Shown here: positions 4,621-33,063 of the stretch, in pieces
Layout of the letters: each line of letters opens with the position of its first letter
Numbering within the stretch: the stretch's first letter is position 1
Virus record (IMG/VR): IMGVR_UViG_3300022413_000025
Location: 1-35,691 of that record
Source: a virus
DNA: 35,691 bases
Direction: 5' to 3' (one strand)
The notes under the pieces: generated by a model
The model's database searches: none
What the model saw: the letters and a program-made list of their open reading frames with translations, nothing else
Told to the model about the DNA's origin: nothing
Program-made: the position numbers and the translations under genes

Positions 4621-4951
4621 GTATATCCCCCTTCTCTTGAATCCCCTTCACCATGCAGCGCCTCACAAGGTCCCATCCCCCATCAGCCAATAAGGTCTCT
4701 TGGCATTTCTTGTAAATAGACGGGAATTCACCAAGGTTTGTTGCACTCCATTGGAATCCGTCAGTATCTCTTTCGATGCAATAGGCCGCCACTTTTGTAT
4801 TTCCATGGTCATTGATTGTGTCCATGCACCGAAGAATGATCTGGTTGGAAAGCGCATCCACCATTTCTTGCTGTTTAGGACTCAACCTCTCTGTGGCATA
4901 CGCCATTGACGCTAGAAGTATGCACGCTACTGTCATCATGAGTAGTTTCAT
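4604..4951 (-). CDS. secreted protein of unknown function
   Basis: A 115-residue protein with a clear signal peptide: MKLLMMTVACILLASMAYA, with an AYA cleavage site before TERLSPK. The mature part has four Cys spaced for two possible disulfides (CMDT, YCIE, CQET, RCMV). GGAGGG lies 5 bases upstream, and the ATG overlaps the nuclease stop codon as ATGA. It is translated with the exported thermonuclease and may act with it in the periplasm; it could be an inhibitor or a cofactor, but no family was recognised. Confidence 0.72.
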   Translation of the reverse strand: MKLLMMTVACILLASMAYATERLSPKQQEMVDALSNQIILRCMDTINDHGNTKVAAYCIERDTDGFQWSATNLGEFPSIYKKCQETLLADGGWDLVRRCMVKGIQEKGDIHATIK

Positions 4952-5436
4952 GGCTTCCCTCCTAATTTTGAGTAATAATTTCTGTTAGCCTTTCGATACA
5001 CCCAAGGCGGGATTGCCAGGGAATCCTCCCAAAGCCCGGTTCGTGATCTCTTCGCTTGAACTTCCAACCCACCGAGGTACGCATCTTTTGAATACTTATA
5101 AAACCACCATGTCAGCCCTGCTTTCAGCATTTCATGACTGACGTTCTGGCCGTCAGGAGTGATCACTGTCGCGATTGTCCGACCGTACTTCCCCTTTTTT
5201 AAGGGAAACACCGTGACAGTTTTCTTATAAATAAGATCCTTCATAAACGCTTTAGCCTTCCCCCCGTAGGCTTGTCCTTTTTCGGGGGAATCAATACCGC
5301 TCAATCTAATGGTTATTCTTGCTTTGTCCTGGTCTACGATTGTGACTGTATCGCCATCAGAAACATGAATAACCTCAGCCTTATATTCTGCGTGGGCTGT
5401 ACTCACAAAAAACAATGCAATAATGAAATGTTTCAC
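4948..5436 (-). CDS. secreted thermonuclease (staphylococcal nuclease-like)
   Basis: A 162-residue Ca2+-type nuclease of the SNase family. GTG at 5436 is chosen because GGAGGAG lies 6 bases upstream and it overlaps the preceding stop as GTGA; an ATG 15 bases earlier would add MEEQV. Residues 1-16 form a signal peptide (KHFIIALFFVSTAHA, cut before EYKAE). The catalytic set of the staphylococcal enzyme is present: VSDGDTV, ITIRLSGIDSPE (Arg44, Asp49, Glu52) and GKYGRTIA (Arg86). Export suggests it degrades DNA outside the cytoplasm, for example to exclude other phage DNA or to salvage nucleotides; which one is inference. Confidence 0.9.
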   Translation of the reverse strand: MKHFIIALFFVSTAHAEYKAEVIHVSDGDTVTIVDQDKARITIRLSGIDSPEKGQAYGGKAKAFMKDLIYKKTVTVFPLKKGKYGRTIATVITPDGQNVSHEMLKAGLTWWFYKYSKDAYLGGLEVQAKRSRTGLWEDSLAIPPWVYRKANRNYYSKLGGKP

Positions 5437-5789
5437 CACTTGCTCCTCCATACCGCCGCTTGGCGATTGCTTGTCGTTGGGCGACGTTCGCCGGAATCCT
5501 CGATCTCTCCACTAATGCGAAGATCCGACACGCGCTTGGTAATTTGCCAATAACTTAACGGGGTCTCAGTCGATTTCAGTTCAAGCTCAAGCTCTTGGCT
5601 TGTCAATCCCGCTGGGTTCCGTCTTAATGCAGCCAAAATGACTTTCATATGCCTGCCTGCAACCTCGCCCGCGTGCCTTGCTGCATCAATAGACGTATCA
5701 GGATCGCTTGACCTTACATGCGGGGTTGCATCCCATAAACCCTGGCACGGTTGCTTATCTGGCGCTAGATCTGGGAACAAACTTTCCAT
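5433..5789 (-). CDS. winged-helix protein, 118 aa
   Basis: A 118-residue protein with a conserved phage-type N-terminus (SSDPDTSIDAARHA) and a winged-helix core, KVILAALRRNPAGLTSQEL followed by YWQITKRVSDLRISGEI. Such small proteins are frequent in phage early regions and probably bind DNA, but their role is not established. AAGGAGGGTGATCT directly before the ATG is a strong ribosome binding site. The stop overlaps the nuclease GTG start. Confidence 0.75.
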   Translation of the reverse strand: MESLFPDLAPDKQPCQGLWDATPHVRSSDPDTSIDAARHAGEVAGRHMKVILAALRRNPAGLTSQELELELKSTETPLSYWQITKRVSDLRISGEIEDSGERRPTTSNRQAAVWRSKW

Positions 5790-8727: not shown

Positions 8728-9165
8728 TTAGATTTCTGTTGCTCCGGTACTTGTGGTGCGTGACATGAGTTCGGTGAGTTCGACGGCCCGGGTACCTACC
8801 TGTAAATACCATCGGCTTTCTTTCATTTCTTTTGCCGCTAGCTCCCAATTGTTAAATTCTAGCGCCGTCCAAAACCGCACAAAATCCCGCAATCGTGGCC
8901 ATCCGAGGTTAAACCCCATGTTTACCACAACAAGACGCGCTGAATAGGGTAGCATTCTCCAAAAAGGTTTATGCCGATCAAGCTCCGTCATCACAAGGTA
9001 GATGTCATCTTCAAGAATATGCGCTGCTGCCTCAATCGAAATGGGGCAGTTCAAGTTGTGTCCATACCCTAGCGTAGGAACGCCTACAGCGTCCTTGTAT
9101 ATCTCTAATGATAACCCCTCATGACGTTTTAACATCGCCGTCAATGACGACATAAACTTATCCAT
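8728..9165 (-). CDS. endolysin, GH24 lysozyme (T4-type muramidase)
   Basis: A 145-residue muramidase that cuts peptidoglycan at lysis. RHEGLSLEIYKDAVGVPT contains the T4 lysozyme catalytic triad as Glu16, Asp25 and Thr31, followed by LGYGHNL. The C-terminal half shows VVVNMGFNLGWPRL and ESRWYLQVGTRAVEL, typical of the family. ATG at 9165 overlaps the previous stop and follows AAAGG by 9 bases; in-frame TTG and GTG codons lie just upstream. There is no signal peptide, so release should need a holin. Confidence 0.93.
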   Translation of the reverse strand: MDKFMSSLTAMLKRHEGLSLEIYKDAVGVPTLGYGHNLNCPISIEAAAHILEDDIYLVMTELDRHKPFWRMLPYSARLVVVNMGFNLGWPRLRDFVRFWTALEFNNWELAAKEMKESRWYLQVGTRAVELTELMSRTTSTGATEI

Positions 9166-9436
9166 TTCCACCAACCTTTGCTAATTGATTTTCATCGATA
9201 ACAGGCACGAAGCATTTCCCCTTAAAACTCCATGGCCCAGGGATAATGCCACTCAGGGATTGTGTATCGTTGCGTATTGAGTCAACAATTTCCCTTGCCC
9301 GTGTCGCGCAATCGTCTAAAGTGTAATAGTGAACGACTGGCCGATCAAAAAACTTCAGGCATGTTGGCCCCGTGTCATGATCGCCAACAAAGCCCGCGTT
9401 AATGGAACAAACGATAACTAACGCTACATAAAACAT
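9158..9436 (-). CDS. secreted or membrane-anchored small protein
   Basis: A 92-residue protein with an N-terminal hydrophobic segment (FYVALVIVCSINAGF) that could be a signal peptide. The mature part has Cys residues in PTCLKFF, DDCATRA and KGKCFVP. It follows the previous stop by two bases and overlaps the lysozyme start. A periplasmic role in lysis is possible from context only. Confidence 0.6.
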   Translation of the reverse strand: MFYVALVIVCSINAGFVGDHDTGPTCLKFFDRPVVHYYTLDDCATRAREIVDSIRNDTQSLSGIIPGPWSFKGKCFVPVIDENQLAKVGGNG

Positions 9437-9438
9437 CG

Positions 9439-9741
9439 TTATGGATGCAACGCCTCAGAGATGCGTTTTCGTAATTGGTTTACGGTGTCTCTTTTTTTGG
9501 GAAGTGGTTCCAGGTTTTTCTCTCGGATGCCCTGCAATCGTGGCCCCCAGTCGGTTAAGAATTTCACAGTGTACGGGGTATTCGGCCCAGGTTCAACGCC
9601 ATTGCCGAGCCGCTGGACTTTCACGACTGTACAGTGGTCGCCAGCCTCAATAAGATCACGGAGTTTTGCAGAGCTAAAGTCCACTTCCCCGCCCTTTTTT
9701 AACCGTAATACTTGTCCAACATGGTATTTAAGTTTGTTCAT
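9439..9741 (-). CDS. hypothetical protein, 100 aa
   Basis: ATG at 9741 is chosen for AAAGGG 5-6 bases upstream and for its ATGA overlap with the lipoprotein stop. The product is basic, with beta-strand patterns (YHVGQVLRLKKGG, DHCTVVKVQRLG, YTVKFLTDWG) that suggest a small SH3-like barrel. Family not recognised; it lies in the lysis region but has no membrane segment. Confidence 0.6.
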   Translation of the reverse strand: MNKLKYHVGQVLRLKKGGEVDFSSAKLRDLIEAGDHCTVVKVQRLGNGVEPGPNTPYTVKFLTDWGPRLQGIREKNLEPLPKKRDTVNQLRKRISEALHP

Positions 9742-9944
9742 AAGGCCCTTTCTACCGGGCAACTTTCGAGCTTGACTGGCCCTGTCCCAGTGATCGTCCC
9801 AAGGTTTACGCTAAACCATGCGGTATTGGGGGCCGTGATATTCAGGTTCCCCCCCTCAGCGATATCAAGCATGACGCATTTCTCTTTTAGTGAAGCGCAC
9901 CCGCTCAACACTACTAATAGAATTACGGCGCATGTTGTAAGCAT
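9738..9944 (-). CDS. small lipoprotein, outer-spanin candidate
   Basis: A 68-residue protein with a lipoprotein signal ending in VVLSGC, giving lipidation at Cys16; Ala at position +2 favours the outer membrane. The mature part is short and has two more Cys. It overlaps the end of the neighbouring single-span protein gene by 22 bases, the arrangement of Rz/Rz1-type spanin genes. It lacks the proline-rich character of classical Rz1, so the spanin call is inferred from context. Confidence 0.55.
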   Translation of the reverse strand: MLTTCAVILLVVLSGCASLKEKCVMLDIAEGGNLNITAPNTAWFSVNLGTITGTGPVKLESCPVERAL

Positions 9945-10291
9945 ATTTCCCGCTCCTCTCGTGTATTGGCCGTGTTAACGCATGTTCGTTGCTGATAAAA
10001 CACGCTGTCTTTAATGAGGTCTTGATTGACTTCAAGTTGTAACGCCTGCTTATCTAATCCGCCTTTCACTTGTATCCACATTTCATCAATCTGGTTCTCA
10101 ATCATCGAGCCAATGTCCTTAATAACTTCATGCTCTTGTTGATACACATTGTTAAAGTATCCACTGCGATCTAACCACAACACAGCAGTCGTGATGAACG
10201 GAAAGGCAAACGCAATAATCAGGACCGTGATAGCTACTTTCTGGTAACGCTCAATGAGCCATTGAAGGGTAGAAAATGTCTTGTCAACCAT
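9923..10291 (-). CDS. single-span membrane protein, inner-spanin candidate
   Basis: A 122-residue protein with one N-terminal membrane helix (VAITVLIIAFAFPFITTAVL, residues about 19-38), then a helical, charged external domain and a C-terminal Cys pair (TCVNTANTREEREICL). The topology fits an inner-membrane spanin pairing with the overlapping lipoprotein gene. The ATG overlaps the upstream stop as TGATG. The upstream gene product has the same layout and Cys spacing, so the two look like duplicates. Confidence 0.5.
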   Translation of the reverse strand: MVDKTFSTLQWLIERYQKVAITVLIIAFAFPFITTAVLWLDRSGYFNNVYQQEHEVIKDIGSMIENQIDEMWIQVKGGLDKQALQLEVNQDLIKDSVFYQQRTCVNTANTREEREICLQHAP

Positions 10292-10713
10292 CAGTGTGAG
10301 TCTCCTGGTACAGCAACATTATCGAATAGATGCATCTTGTCACAAATGTTATGTTTGATATTTTTGGCGTCATCCATGCAGGCTTTATACACAAAAAAGG
10401 CGAGCATCCGGTCCTTTTTTAGACTTTGATCATTGTGGTTGGTTATCGTGCGTAGGATTGTATTCTGCACTATCGCAATTTCTCCTTGAGCATCCGCCAC
10501 CGCCTCCGCGACAGAGGTTTGGCCTTGATGTTCGGCCCGCCTGTATGACATCTCTTCCATAATAGGAGTGACCCAGATTCCACGCGACTCCATATATAAT
10601 ACGACAGCCGCTAGCGGCCAAGCCGCCGCACCGACAATGATTAGCATTAACGTTGTATGCTTATACTCAGTTGTAAACCATTTAATCCCCTCAAGAATCA
10701 CACTTGTTCCCAT
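10291..10713 (-). CDS. single-span membrane protein, related to its neighbour
   Basis: A 140-residue protein with a membrane helix (TLMLIIVGAAAWPLAAVVLY), an external helical region (SVAEAVADAQGEIAIVQN) and a C-terminal Cys pair (ACMDDAKNIKHNIC) spaced almost as in the next gene. GGGAGGT is 4-5 bases before the ATG. It may be a holin-like or spanin-like protein; the call rests on topology and position. Confidence 0.5.
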   Translation of the reverse strand: MGTSVILEGIKWFTTEYKHTTLMLIIVGAAAWPLAAVVLYMESRGIWVTPIMEEMSYRRAEHQGQTSVAEAVADAQGEIAIVQNTILRTITNHNDQSLKKDRMLAFFVYKACMDDAKNIKHNICDKMHLFDNVAVPGDSH

Positions 10714-10933: not shown

Positions 10934-10997
10934 TTGGTATCTCCTTTGTAATAGCCACAATAATAGATAGAGCCAGTAAAGGCCCTGGGACTGTCAT
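10908..10997 (-). CDS. 29-aa hydrophobic peptide (candidate)
   Basis: ATG at 10997 overlaps the stop of the upstream virion-like gene as ATGA and follows GGTGGAGC. The peptide begins MTVPGPLLALSIIVAITKEI and overlaps the holin candidate by 26 bases; the holin ribosome binding site lies inside it. It may be a leader peptide for translational control of the holin, or chance. Confidence 0.35.
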   Translation of the reverse strand: MTVPGPLLALSIIVAITKEIPNERSIKYH

Positions 10998-11767
10998 GCT
11001 CCACCCGTCACCACAGGCGCGGGCACCGCTGCCGGAATCTCCACTGAGTCGGGGGATATGTAAATATTGATATCCGTTCCACGCAATGCCAGCCAGCAAA
11101 TTGGGCCAATATTTGTTGCATTACGTGCAGAGGGACCGCCACCGCTCGCCGTACCGAATACCTTTACCTCAACAACACTCCCATCCGCTGTTCCAAGAAT
11201 GTCGGCGTTCCATGTAAAGGTGACTTCTTGTGATGCATCTGTGACGTTAATTTCTGAACTTGTAGCTAACGCAGACCCGCCGCCATTCTCCCATACCTCA
11301 ATCCTGACAGTCGGGGTCCCTGTTTGGCCTGTGTCAAATTGACCAACCGTCACTTCAATTGCTTGCTCTCCCGTCCCATGCGTCGGTGCCTTTGATGGAG
11401 TCGGCATTGTCACATGACAGGACGTGTCTGTGGTGTTACTCGTGGCTGTCGCTGGATCTCCACTTTCCTGGAAATCGACGAGCGCTGCCGCTGGAGTAAA
11501 CCCTGCGCTGGCTGTTATGGCGTCAGGGAATAACGGTTCCTTGCGTTTCATCTGCCCCGTCATGATCTTATGGTTCGCGCCTTGAGTCTTGGCGTCAACT
11601 AAGTCCGCTAACTCGGCGTCTGTCTCACTCCCGGTAATCGTGACATTGTAAATAGAGCATCCCGTATCTGGCGTTTGTGCAGGGACCGAAGATTCCGCCG
11701 CATCAAAAAACCAAGTGGCACCAACTGCGCCATCGGCGTCGGCATATTCAAAGACATATTTTTTCAT
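10994..11767 (-). CDS. virion-like protein with beta-sandwich domain
   Basis: A 257-residue protein lying just after the tail tip gene. The first 75 residues (MKKYVFEYADADGAVGATWF) may form a cap. Residues about 130-225 have alternating strands (EVTVGQFDTGQTGTPTVRIE) typical of an immunoglobulin-like or jelly-roll beta sandwich. The last residues, SPDSVEIPAAVPAPVVTGG, match one unit of the 23-residue repeat that makes up the protein encoded at 22604-23827. A weak ribosome binding site and a start one base after the fibre stop suggest coupling. It probably decorates the tail tip. Confidence 0.65.
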   Translation of the reverse strand: MKKYVFEYADADGAVGATWFFDAAESSVPAQTPDTGCSIYNVTITGSETDAELADLVDAKTQGANHKIMTGQMKRKEPLFPDAITASAGFTPAAALVDFQESGDPATATSNTTDTSCHVTMPTPSKAPTHGTGEQAIEVTVGQFDTGQTGTPTVRIEVWENGGGSALATSSEINVTDASQEVTFTWNADILGTADGSVVEVKVFGTASGGGPSARNATNIGPICWLALRGTDINIYISPDSVEIPAAVPAPVVTGGA

Positions 11768-18817: not shown

Positions 18818-20947
18818 CTATCCAACCCTCCCTGTTCGTCCTAGCCCAAAAGTCCCGGCCATCGTTTGGCCAATGCGCCCACGCCTTATTGAGTTATCCA
18901 CGATATCCTCTATCAAAATATCGATAGTTTTTCCACCGCCTGGTTGGTTGCGCGTTTCAGCCCCAGCCCTGACAGATGATGAAGTATTATTGACTACCAC
19001 GCTGATACCTCCGCGGGCTTGCTGGCTTGGGGTCTCTACCGTCACGCGCTCACCTTGTGAGACGCCTAGGGACACAAGGTTTCGGTCAACCCCACCGCGA
19101 CCATTCACGCGAAAAGACCCACCCTTAGCAAATAATCCAGCGAATCTCCCGCCAGACCCACCGGCACCACCACCCCCAAGAGACCCAAGAGACGTTTGTG
19201 CAATCCCTGGAGCCGCTGGAGCACCGCCACCAAGCGCCACAAGTGTTGCTTGAGCTGCCACCGCTGCGAGGATCTGCACGACAATCCCTTTAATGATATC
19301 AATCGTAGACTCTAGCGAGTCTTTCCAACTCAACGTCCCGCTCTCAAGATCATTAAACAACCCTTGGAACTGTGTCCGAAAGAGTCCTTGCACACCTGAT
19401 GCGAAGTTTTGTGCCACAATTTGTCCGACGCCAAAAGCAATCGTTGAATCCTGCGTGAATCGGGAAAAGGCGTTCTGCCAGCCGTCAGCAAATGTCTCAG
19501 GCGCTTTGTTAAGTTCTGCGATTTCCTCACCTGTGGCCCTTACCGCCGAAGCCCCCTGGCTATCAAAGTCTGCGTTAATTCTGTTTGCATCATTAAGGGT
19601 ACCGCTGATTTCAAACCCGCCACCCTGAAATGATGCAGGCGTGTCCACCCCGAACTTCCCTTTTTCTTTCGCTTCAAGTAACGCGATCTCACGTCGGATA
19701 GCCAACAACCCTTGGTTTGCATTAAGTTCCCTTCTTAAAAACTCAATCTTCGCGTCGCTTGCCAGTTTGTCAAACCCCGCTTGCTCACGCTCAATCTTTA
19801 TTGTTGCTTCCACAACTCTCGCAAGCTCTTTCAGTTTCTCAAGTTTTGTGGCAAGTGAAGTCGCTTCCACCGTAATCGGATCAAGGGTTGTTGTCTCTGC
19901 ATCGTTCCTTCTGGATGTTTCTATTTCTTGCAACTCTTTTAATTCACTATTGACATTTTTGAGCTGCAACTGAAGCCGCTCTAACCCACCCGCTCCGCTC
20001 TCCAGTGATAACGAAAACATATCAAGCGCAGAATTTCCACCAAGCCCAAAGGAATTGATACCCCCTGACGCCTCCCGATCAGCTTGTATTTTCGTGATAA
20101 GGAGCAACAATTGCTCACGACGTTCAAGTAACGTGTTGATTCGCTCGGCATCCGTTAAGTCTCCGCTTAAGAGTGCCCGCATGGCTTGCTGAAACCCAGG
20201 AGCATCCTTCGCCACAAACTTTGAGATAATGTCCGCCATTTTTGTCAAAGCAGGAAGGAACGTAGCCCCAAGGTTTGTCGAAAGCGCCGAAATTGTCCGA
20301 TCAAAATCCACCATCGCATCGTTAAAGGCTTCGGCGTTCTGGATCGTTTCCCCCGAAAGTTTCCCGTTAAGTTTATCAAGAGCTTCAGCTTGCTCATCAA
20401 ACGCCTTCGACCCCTTCCCGACAACCAGATTCATCCGGCGTCCAGATTCAGAGAATAACTCTTGACTAATATTGACCTGCGCCGTCCTATCGCCCAACGT
20501 CGCCATCCGGTCTGAGACTAAGCGCAACGCCTGCTCTGTATTGAGGCCCTGAATGTCCTCTAAGGCAATTCCTAATTCCTCCAATGCCCTCGCCGCTGGA
20601 CCTCCACCATCACGTTTGAACGCCCCCAGCCGCCGCGTAAACGCTGTTAAAGACTTGTCAAGCTCTGCCTGGCTTAACCCCGCCTTCTCGGCTACAAAAC
20701 GATACTCTTGCAACGCGTCGGTACTAAATCCTAACTGTGCCGACATCTTACCGAGTTCATCCGCAAAATCAGCAGTCCGCTTCACGCTACGCGCAATAGC
20801 CCCAGTCACAAACACGCCGGCCACAAGCGAACCGATGGCCCTTACGCTATTGCCGAATTGTGTAAGTTGGCCCCGCGTCTTGCGGAGTTCTCCCACGAAT
20901 TGTGTGGATTGAAGTTTGAGGATCGCTGAAATTTCCGGACGTGGCAT
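18818..20947 (-). CDS. tail tape measure protein
   Basis: A 709-residue, mainly helical protein that sets tail length and is ejected with the DNA. The N-terminal part has FVGELRKTRGQLTQFGNSV and ADELGKMSAQLGFSTDALQE, common in tape measure proteins. A coiled-coil middle (LKELQEIETSRRNDAET) follows, then hydrophobic segments near residues 575-605 (ATLVALGGGAPAAPG region) and a glycine-rich C-terminal part. At about 1.5 angstroms per residue the predicted tail is near 105 nm. It lies directly after the frameshifted chaperone genes, which is the canonical order. Confidence 0.9.
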   Translation of the reverse strand: MPRPEISAILKLQSTQFVGELRKTRGQLTQFGNSVRAIGSLVAGVFVTGAIARSVKRTADFADELGKMSAQLGFSTDALQEYRFVAEKAGLSQAELDKSLTAFTRRLGAFKRDGGGPAARALEELGIALEDIQGLNTEQALRLVSDRMATLGDRTAQVNISQELFSESGRRMNLVVGKGSKAFDEQAEALDKLNGKLSGETIQNAEAFNDAMVDFDRTISALSTNLGATFLPALTKMADIISKFVAKDAPGFQQAMRALLSGDLTDAERINTLLERREQLLLLITKIQADREASGGINSFGLGGNSALDMFSLSLESGAGGLERLQLQLKNVNSELKELQEIETSRRNDAETTTLDPITVEATSLATKLEKLKELARVVEATIKIEREQAGFDKLASDAKIEFLRRELNANQGLLAIRREIALLEAKEKGKFGVDTPASFQGGGFEISGTLNDANRINADFDSQGASAVRATGEEIAELNKAPETFADGWQNAFSRFTQDSTIAFGVGQIVAQNFASGVQGLFRTQFQGLFNDLESGTLSWKDSLESTIDIIKGIVVQILAAVAAQATLVALGGGAPAAPGIAQTSLGSLGGGGAGGSGGRFAGLFAKGGSFRVNGRGGVDRNLVSLGVSQGERVTVETPSQQARGGISVVVNNTSSSVRAGAETRNQPGGGKTIDILIEDIVDNSIRRGRIGQTMAGTFGLGRTGRVG

Positions 20948-22603: not shown

Positions 22604-23827
22604 TTAAGAAACTAATGTGCCGCCCGAAAGAACCGGACAGGCTAACGTGTGATCACTAAGGATAGCTACGCTTCCTAACGCCCCAAATGACCCAGTTAAG
22701 AGCGGATCGGGGATAATTGACGGAATAGCAACTGGTGCTGGCGTCAACACTACAGCCCCCATCGTTATTGTTGGATCTGGTATCGCCACCGTTACGACCA
22801 CTGAAGCCGGAGTCAGGGTTGTCCCCGCAACGCCAACCGATGGACCAGGAACGACTGACGCGATAGCCACAGGGGAAGGCGTCAGCGTAATCGCGCCTAA
22901 CGTGATCGATGGAGCAGGAATAGACGCCGGGATCGTCACCGCATCAGGCGTGAGAATCGTCCCGCCTTGTGAAACAACCGGATCAGGCGTCACCGAGGAA
23001 ATTGCCACAGGCGAAGGCGTTAACACTAACGCGCCCAACGTAATCGTAGGGTCTGGAATAACCACTGGGATTGTGACAGGACTTGGGATAATCGCCCCGG
23101 CCAATGAAACCGCTGGGGTTGGTAACGCTGTGGGTATTGCGACCGGTGATGGCGTCAACGCCACTGCGCCTACACTGACCGCTGGATCTGGGATTATCAC
23201 AGGAATCGACACCGGGGAAGGTGCAATCGATTGACCAAGAAGGACAACTGGATCAGGGACCACCGCCGGGATTGTGACAGGGGAAGGCGTCACGGAAACG
23301 CTACCTAAACTTACCGCCGGAGCAGGGATAGCCGAAGGGATTGCGACAGGCGAAGGCGTCAACACTGTTGCGCCTTGAGAAACTACCGGATCAGGCAATA
23401 AAGCAGAAACAACAATAGGAGACGGAGTTACCACCACCGCACCCCGCGAAACCACTGGCACAGGAATGGCCGCTGCGATCGCAACCGAGTCAGGTTCTAC
23501 CGTCACAGAACCAAAAGAAACTACTGGAGCAGGCATTAAAGCAGAAACAATAACCGGAGATGGGGTTACTATGGTTGCTCCTAACGTCACCGACCCGGTG
23601 GGTAGAAGCGCCGAAATAACAACAGGCGAAGGCGTGAGGGTAACGGCCCCGACTGTGACGGAGGGAGCAGGGATTGACGATGGAACGGCGACTGCATCTG
23701 GTTCTACAATTTGTGCAGCAGAACCACCGGACTCAATAACCACACCAGATGAAAGGAGTGGGTAAAGGTATGACTCCCCATCCTCTGGGTTATAAACAAT
23801 CCCTTCAAAGTATTGATAATTTGCCAT
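22604..23827 (-). CDS. 23-residue repeat virion protein
   Basis: A 407-residue protein. After about 45 residues it consists of about 15 units of 22-23 residues with consensus TPSPVAIPxxIPDPxVSLGA, for example TPSPVAIPSAIPAPAVSLGS. Prolines recur at fixed places and hydrophobic residues alternate, which points to a repeated beta-strand fibre or solenoid. A short terminal part follows. A shortened copy of the unit ends the virion-like protein encoded at 10994-11767. The gene lies between a beta-helix protein and tail genes, so a tail fibre or decoration role is likely. Start is two bases after the upstream stop. Confidence 0.72.
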   Translation of the reverse strand: MANYQYFEGIVYNPEDGESYLYPLLSSGVVIESGGSAAQIVEPDAVAVPSSIPAPSVTVGAVTLTPSPVVISALLPTGSVTLGATIVTPSPVIVSALMPAPVVSFGSVTVEPDSVAIAAAIPVPVVSRGAVVVTPSPIVVSALLPDPVVSQGATVLTPSPVAIPSAIPAPAVSLGSVSVTPSPVTIPAVVPDPVVLLGQSIAPSPVSIPVIIPDPAVSVGAVALTPSPVAIPTALPTPAVSLAGAIIPSPVTIPVVIPDPTITLGALVLTPSPVAISSVTPDPVVSQGGTILTPDAVTIPASIPAPSITLGAITLTPSPVAIASVVPGPSVGVAGTTLTPASVVVTVAIPDPTITMGAVVLTPAPVAIPSIIPDPLLTGSFGALGSVAILSDHTLACPVLSGGTLVS

Positions 23828-25629: not shown

Positions 25630-26568
25630 CTAGTTAATCGTTAGACACAACTGACGTGGTTCGTCGTTCATCGTGACATTAACGCACATACTCGCAGGGG
25701 TAGCGGGGGCCGTAGTGTCAGGCCAAACAAATCCAACTACCTCGCTCGGCTCGCTTGCATTCCCTGATGTGTCATAGGCCGTCATCTGTATTCCATACGT
25801 TGACCCTTCTACAATCGGCAAATCAGCACATGGAAATGTTGTTGCAGTTTTCGCCACATCAACAGGGTCTAACGGCGCACCATCTTTATTAACAAAAACT
25901 TGATATCCCGCAAGATCAGACTCAGTATTAGCTGCCCAAGACAACGTTGCGCACCCGTTAACCATTATTGGTTCCTCAACCGCTTGCGCTAAAGAAACTA
26001 CAGGAAAAGCTAACATCACAATCCCAACAGCAATAAGCACCCTTGTTTTATCTGTTACTTTCTTAATAATTTGACTCACTCGACTCTCCGTTATTCCAAA
26101 GGTCTCACCAGTTGTTTTCATAGAACTGCCCCTCCAATATGTCATAAAAATATTCTTCGTCCTCTTGTCTGGCAATTGGCTTACAGCGACCGATAGCCTG
26201 CGCAAAATGTCTCTCGACTCAAAATCAATTGGTTGAATTACGGGGTCCCAATAATCAGAGTTATATTTTTGAGATGGGGAATCTGGCTTCTCTGTATGCT
26301 TAAACGACTGGAACACCACCCCACGCTTTAGCCTTTTGCTCCACCCAGTTTGAGACCTCATCCAATCAAGCAACCGATGATGAAGGTGCTTCGTGGGGTT
26401 GGTTGGCCACTCTTCAACAAGCTTCGCCACTTCAACCCATGACTGCTGCCTTACATCCTCCCATGAATGCCCATGACGCAAGAGAGTCCCGCAATATTTC
26501 TCCCAGAAAACCCTAGAAACATATGCGACGCTTTGACCTAGTTTCCCGTGATAATCATTATCCGTCAT
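25630..26568 (-). CDS. sigma factor-like protein fused to membrane segment and FN3 domain
   Basis: A 312-residue protein in one open frame. Residues about 10-75 resemble sigma region 2 (WEDVRQQSWVEVAKLVEEW, HHRLLDWMRSQ). Residues 120-176 match sigma region 4 of FliA/WhiG type: LSVAVSQLPDKRTKNIF and ETFGITESRVSQIIKKV. Residues 177-196 (VLIAVGIVMLAFPVVSLAQA) form a membrane helix or signal sequence ending in AQA. Residues about 205-285 form an FN3 domain with SWAANTESDLAGYQVFV and TAYDTSGNASEP, close to an FN3 unit in the phage J protein. The start abuts the tail tube stop (TAA-ATG) without a clear ribosome binding site. It may be a membrane-bound transcription factor, or two overlapping genes fused. 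Confidence 0.75.
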   Translation of the reverse strand: MTDNDYHGKLGQSVAYVSRVFWEKYCGTLLRHGHSWEDVRQQSWVEVAKLVEEWPTNPTKHLHHRLLDWMRSQTGWSKRLKRGVVFQSFKHTEKPDSPSQKYNSDYWDPVIQPIDFESRDILRRLSVAVSQLPDKRTKNIFMTYWRGSSMKTTGETFGITESRVSQIIKKVTDKTRVLIAVGIVMLAFPVVSLAQAVEEPIMVNGCATLSWAANTESDLAGYQVFVNKDGAPLDPVDVAKTATTFPCADLPIVEGSTYGIQMTAYDTSGNASEPSEVVGFVWPDTTAPATPASMCVNVTMNDEPRQLCLTIN

Positions 26569-33024: not shown

Positions 33025-33034
33025 TATACGTATA
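33025..33034. promoter_or_regulatory. palindrome TATACGTATA at the head promoter start
   Basis: A perfect 10-base palindrome lying just after the -10, over the predicted transcription start. It could be an operator for a dimeric repressor; it might also arise by chance in AT-rich DNA. Confidence 0.35.
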
Positions 33035-33063
33035 GTATACATAGCTTTAAAGAAAAATGTCAA
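33034..33063 (-). promoter_or_regulatory. strong sigma70 promoter for head and tail genes
   Basis: Minus-strand TTGACA (33058-33063), an 18-base spacer and TATACT (33034-33039). It lies in the 106-base gap between the large terminase and portal genes. Confidence 0.75.

Follow-up and report, generated by a model that had tools for sequence, protein, structure and literature searches.

The locus studied here raises the question of whether a tailed phage encodes a sigma factor-like DNA-binding module, a membrane segment and an FN3 domain within one protein and, if so, what such a protein would do. The window analysed, a 35,691-base contig from a tailed phage whose principal genes lie on the minus strand, contains the single open frame that the first-pass annotation had claimed at 25630-26568: it lies on the minus strand, runs from an ATG at 26568 to a TAG at 25632-25630 and encodes 312 residues, comprising a sigma-like half, a membrane segment and an FN3 half. 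It is preceded by the tail tube gene (Phage_tube_2 in Pfam), the TAA stop of which directly abuts the ATG of the fused gene, and is followed by a gene encoding a 158-residue product with no assigned function, with the tape measure gene lying further down the operon (18818-20947). The fused gene is real, is conserved in two phages and is unusual, and we found no description in the open literature of a phage-borne membrane-tethered sigma factor, or of one with an FN3 domain.

The second phage (IMGVR_UViG_3300022306_000007) is represented by a contig that is largely syntenic with the window; at the same operon position, after a tail tube that is 93% identical, this contig has a fused counterpart (L003:6985-7938) with 43% identity along its full length. 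Synonymous sites between the two phages are near-saturated (pS is 0.68 even in the capsid gene), and both halves of the fused gene show an excess of third-position changes, with pN of 0.34-0.43 versus pS of 0.71-0.86. The frame is open through the junction in both phages and the indels around the junction are of whole codons; judging from these sequences, chance read-through across the junction appears very unlikely. The possibility that a sequencing or assembly error had joined two genes, put forward at the outset as a way in which the fusion might prove false, did not hold since the frame stays open despite the saturated synonymous sites: with a divergent fusion in another contig against it and no supporting point found, we regard this explanation as ruled out and its probability as negligible.

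Within the sigma-like half, a region 4 with its helix-turn-helix is certainly present, and its likeness to FliA/WhiG was correctly recognised in the first-pass annotation. It spans residues 117-175 (26044-26220, minus strand), of which residues 129-173 match Sigma70_r4 of Pfam at an E value of 6e-7, exceeding the gathering score, whilst the region 4 profile aligned with Escherichia coli RpoE, FecI, FliA and RpoH at an E value of 1e-5 using hhalign, and the recognition helix reads ESRVSQI where that of FliA reads ESRVSQL. TIGR02937 matches the proteins of both phages (6.6e-8 and 1.9e-5), the PDB chains matched by the sigma half are WhiG and sigma28, and the structural model matches SigA region 4 with a Z score of 9.0 and 1.6 Å over 62 residues. 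The protein does not belong to the FliA/WhiG family itself: the NCBIfam WhiG and FliA models match at 6e-8 to 4e-6, far under their family cut-offs (30.2 bits versus 189.6 for TIGR02479), with the region 4 end of the profile alone being matched.

The structure prediction that had been suggested as a check on the domain layout was made with AlphaFold2 from a two-sequence alignment, and the resulting model, of modest confidence (mean pLDDT 57.6), folds as sigma2, sigma4 and FN3; the sigma half folded alone without an alignment gave a poor model (pLDDT 42), which was set aside. The sigma region 2-like helices occupy residues 8-78 (26335-26547, minus strand), with modelled helices at 3-31, 36-53 and 58-74, and D38-x-x-Q41-Q42 occupies the position of the region 2.2 DxxQ/E in the alignment. 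The claim of a region 2-like sequence has support from the helices of the model, but is weakly supported by sequence: region 2 gave no Pfam match in the window protein, the second phage's protein matches Sigma70_r2 at an E value of 0.035, under the cut-off, and hhalign gave E values of 0.05-0.07, with SWEDVRQQSWVEVAKL falling correctly in register on the region 2.2 helix, although 3 of 200 column shuffles scored as well. The weak sequence signal for region 2 makes binding to core RNA polymerase uncertain. Region 3 is absent. Residues 1-186 of the model are matched by the ECF sigma factors SigL and AlgU (Foldseek, VIA-align) with a large rmsd, which probably stems from domain placement. The closest viral models by fold (BFVD) to the N-terminal half are small RpoE-like and sigma70-ECF-like proteins of uncultured phages, which share this N-terminal fold but are mostly of 140-260 residues and are annotated as sigma subunits only.

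The hydrophobic segment described in the first-pass annotation as ending in AQA was likewise found, at residues 177-195 (25981-26040, minus strand), with the signal peptidase I-type AQA at 194-196 and a basic flank, KKVTDKTR, on its N-terminal side. Its Kyte-Doolittle mean of 2.38 is reached nowhere else in the protein (the runner-up stretch has 0.73); the counterpart in the second phage is hydrophobic at the same place (1.90), with AQA common to both. In each phage this segment begins within a few residues of region 4, and Pfam and NCBIfam scans gave no match to an anti-sigma domain, often of zinc-finger type, lying between the two. Sequence and model agree in a sigma module followed by a transmembrane segment and an extracytoplasmic part in one protein, so that the sigma-type reader, single membrane segment and FN3 domain do occur together, in a fusion kept in a divergent phage; this is the membrane-tethered sigma-like layout known from bacteria, here in a phage. 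We infer a single membrane pass, with the sigma module cytoplasmic and the FN3 half periplasmic. Four cysteines are conserved between the two phages (206, 247, 295 and 308), whilst neither the sigma half nor the membrane segment has a cysteine common to both; since all four lie in the FN3 half, they fit its periplasmic location and presumably form disulphides there.

The FN3 domain itself covers residues 204-284 (25717-25959, minus strand) and contains Cys206 and Cys247, and a C-terminal beta hairpin at residues 290-311 (25636-25701, minus strand) contains Cys295 and Cys308. The assignment as FN3 was confirmed by the second phage's FN3 half, which passes the PF00041 cut-off of 25 just narrowly at 25.5 bits, and by the FN3 folds retrieved in structure searches with the model (rmsd about 2.2-2.8 Å over 75-80 residues); the FN3 half also matches a minor-tail PHROG. 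An origin of this external part in the J protein of the same phage, as had been proposed, was not supported: its FN3 is 38% identical to the phage's own J unit versus 48% to an unrelated phage's free-standing secreted FN3 protein (L021:4818-5708 in IMGVR_UViG_3300038829_000094), and the ESDLAGY/AYDTSGN-type motifs that had suggested a special link with J are also found in the FN3 of that unrelated phage. The secreted protein is encoded between portal and capsid genes in a structural operon, and its signal-like segment is immediately followed by the same NTESDLAGY strand. It resembles the fused protein in having a signal-like segment and FN3 and differs in possessing a second FN3-like unit and no sigma part; because it lacks the latter, it represents the FN3 half in split form. 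Were the sigma half inactive, the fused gene would still show a secreted FN3 module moving among phage structural operons. In the same unrelated phage three consecutive genes of the portal-to-scaffold/capsid region (L021:2593-5708), that of the FN3 protein included, begin with signal-peptide-like segments.

The known carriers of the fused gene are the two phages only. The survey of relatives suggested for distinguishing fused from split forms gave the fused form in these two and the FN3 half alone in the unrelated phage. No fused form was found among 50,697 cultured-phage records (tblastn, E values up to 1 or 10), in which the FN3 half matched FN3 units of tail proteins only and the sigma half gave only chance-level matches, one of them to a Bacillus phage sigma factor. 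A WPTNPTK pattern search of viral contigs yielded three other loci, all unrelated, and a pattern scan of the genome collection yielded none; being based on few patterns, these scans miss distant relatives. Among 35 loci related by their major capsid protein, a sigma-profile match occurred only in the second phage already known; the nearest other capsid relative (capsid 55%, tube 62%) ends inside the tube gene, before the position of the fused gene. Several of the capsid relatives have glycosyltransferase-like genes inserted among their head-tail connector genes (L030:12499-14336, L031:12537-14506 and L042:2442-4226).

ToxR and CadC have their DNA-binding half inside the cell, a single membrane pass and a sensor outside, with an OmpR-type winged helix as the reader. 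The proposal of a ToxR/CadC-like layout with a sigma-type reader stands for the overall layout; the OmpR-type reader is absent, the reader being sigma region 4, and a Pfam scan at E values up to 10 gave no match to an OmpR-type winged helix in the fused protein. FliA and WhiG share region 4 and its recognition helix, whereas the fused protein lacks region 3, has a weak region 2 and has gained a membrane segment and FN3. The nearest counterparts in layout are bacterial. IutY of Pseudomonas putida (ECF243) is a sigma factor fused to a membrane-bound anti-sigma factor, and is the only such protein for which activation has been shown, through proteolysis by Prc and RseP (PMC8999054). The fused protein resembles IutY in having a sigma module and a C-terminal membrane part in one frame; IutY differs in serving bacterial cell-surface signalling, in having an anti-sigma part, in having no reported FN3 and in not being of phage origin. 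ECF52 (SCO4117 of Streptomyces coelicolor), ECF48 and ECF53 combine a sigma module with a transmembrane region and an extracytoplasmic ligand-type domain (PMC5826349; PMC8999054), and ECF52, reported to be exclusive to Actinobacteria, has a zinc finger domain, a proline-rich region and a carbohydrate-binding domain. The fused protein shares the layout of these three groups but has FN3 outside and is phage-borne, and, in contrast to both ECF52 and IutY, no recognised anti-sigma domain separates its region 4 from the membrane. Known phage sigma factors such as T4 gp55 and SPO1 gp28 and gp34 act on the timing of infection (PMC9429907), and in the open literature we found no phage sigma factor tied to a membrane.

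Given this layout, we tentatively favour a reading that we nonetheless hold to be somewhat short of probable, in which the product is an inner-membrane protein with a tethered sigma module inside and FN3 outside, the former being freed by proteolysis. The protein would be made together with the tail tube, probably through translational coupling; its compact sigma-like module (region 4, a divergent region 2 and no region 3) would stay in the cytoplasm, whilst the hydrophobic segment, which resembles an internal signal peptide, would anchor the protein and export the disulphide-bonded FN3 to the periplasm. The tether would keep the sigma module mostly inactive, as in the IutY and ECF52 sigma factors. 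A signal peptidase cut after AQA might be the first step, releasing the FN3 part, and further proteolysis within the membrane, influenced by what FN3 meets in the periplasm, could then control release of the sigma module, which once freed would work with host RNA polymerase. Cleavage at AQA, binding of RNA polymerase and the existence of any signal are steps that we infer. If such a membrane-tethered function is true, the phage could make its transcription respond to the condition of the host envelope, and would do so with a very simple membrane sigma layout, in which no anti-sigma domain is interposed after region 4 and before the membrane. We know of no description of a phage coupling its transcription to host envelope state.

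The more specific form of this idea, in which the membrane-held phage sigma factor senses the envelope via its periplasmic FN3 and, at a late stage of infection, diverts host RNA polymerase, we consider quite unlikely, and a sensing and switching role can at present be regarded as a reasonable guess; were it true, triggers might be, for example, an envelope change before lysis or the attachment of another phage. The operon containing the portal gene and the fused gene has a consensus sigma70 promoter upstream, TTGACA-18-TATACT at 33034-33063 (minus strand), between the terminase and portal genes; its counterpart in the second phage, TTGACT-18-TATACT, lies at the equivalent position within a gap that has diverged. 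This is the best promoter match of the region; promoter-like sites across the region are no more numerous than expected by chance, and what matters about this one is where it lies and that it is conserved. Because of this conserved promoter the operon looks to be served by the housekeeping sigma factor, and the proposed late-transcription switch is somewhat weakened, since the operon has its own sigma70 promoter and the fused gene itself lies in the late operon. With the operon promoter being of the sigma70 type, a target site for the phage's own sigma-like protein is at present hypothetical.

Alternatives to a tethered and releasable sigma module differ in what they make of the junction. The gene might yield two products, with signal peptidase I always cutting after AQA so that FN3 is freed and what stays in the membrane is a sigma-half fragment with no link to sensing, the fusion being a way of obtaining two late products from one frame. 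In both phages AQA closes the hydrophobic segment and is preceded by a proline, a pattern seen in signal peptides that are cleaved, and the unrelated phage has a free secreted FN3 protein in its structural operon; an AxA motif is, however, no proof of cleavage, the Sec route does not usually handle a signal that follows about 175 residues of folded protein, and retention of the sigma half in frame is left unexplained. We rate this as a minor but genuine possibility. A short secreted FN3 protein could also arise through translation, in addition to or instead of the full-length product, from an internal in-frame ATG (Met150, 26119-26121, minus strand), giving overlapping genes in the same frame. 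The fused ORF's own ATG has no Shine-Dalgarno sequence and scores zero, whereas most genes of this phage have one, and its translation is probably coupled to the tail tube stop; by comparison the ATG at 26121 has GGAGG at 9 nt, as good as that of real genes of the phage, and codon 140 of the second phage's gene is an ATG with AAGG likewise at 9 nt. A separate short product from ATG 26121 is possible on this basis, but the strong site is missing from the second phage, whose matching ATG has no Shine-Dalgarno sequence, and the region 4 motif also predicts Met150-Lys151. In both phages the sigma half runs on without a stop, so that the first start, if used, still yields the full-length protein; the signal peptide resulting from the internal start would be long, at about 47 residues, and we consider this internal start unlikely. 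A start at the valine of VTDKTR was ruled out, its codon GTA not being a start codon.

The sigma half might instead be a decayed or repurposed DNA-binding remnant with no role in transcription, the periplasmic FN3 doing the work, for example by blocking adsorption of a second phage or serving tail-related attachment. Fast divergence would agree with this, the fused gene being the fastest-changing of those listed in the structural operon (42% by BLAST versus 77% and 93% for its neighbours, with the tape measure next at 49%), as would the weak region 2, the position among tail genes and the sigma70 promoter of the operon. Against decay, pN in the sigma half stays well below pS, and the conserved blocks of this half, WPTNPTK, DYHGKLG and RVSQI, are as strong as those of the FN3 half. 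We judge a remnant improbable, the more so than either of the two preceding alternatives, and retain the tethered sigma module as the preferred reading.

Several other features of the window were recorded. Two adjacent small membrane proteins (10291-10713 and 9923-10291, minus strand) look alike, each with one pass near the N-terminus, and are possibly a duplicated holin-like pair; they adjoin an Rz1-like lipoprotein (9738-9944) and a lysozyme (8728-9174). The gene at 4948-5451 (minus strand), as read from its sequence only, encodes a thermonuclease-like protein with an N-terminal signal peptide. A repeat protein composed of short units such as LTPSPVAIPSAIPAPAVSLGAV is encoded at 22604-23827 (minus strand), and the protein encoded at 10994-11767 (minus strand) seems to end in a single unit akin to these repeats.
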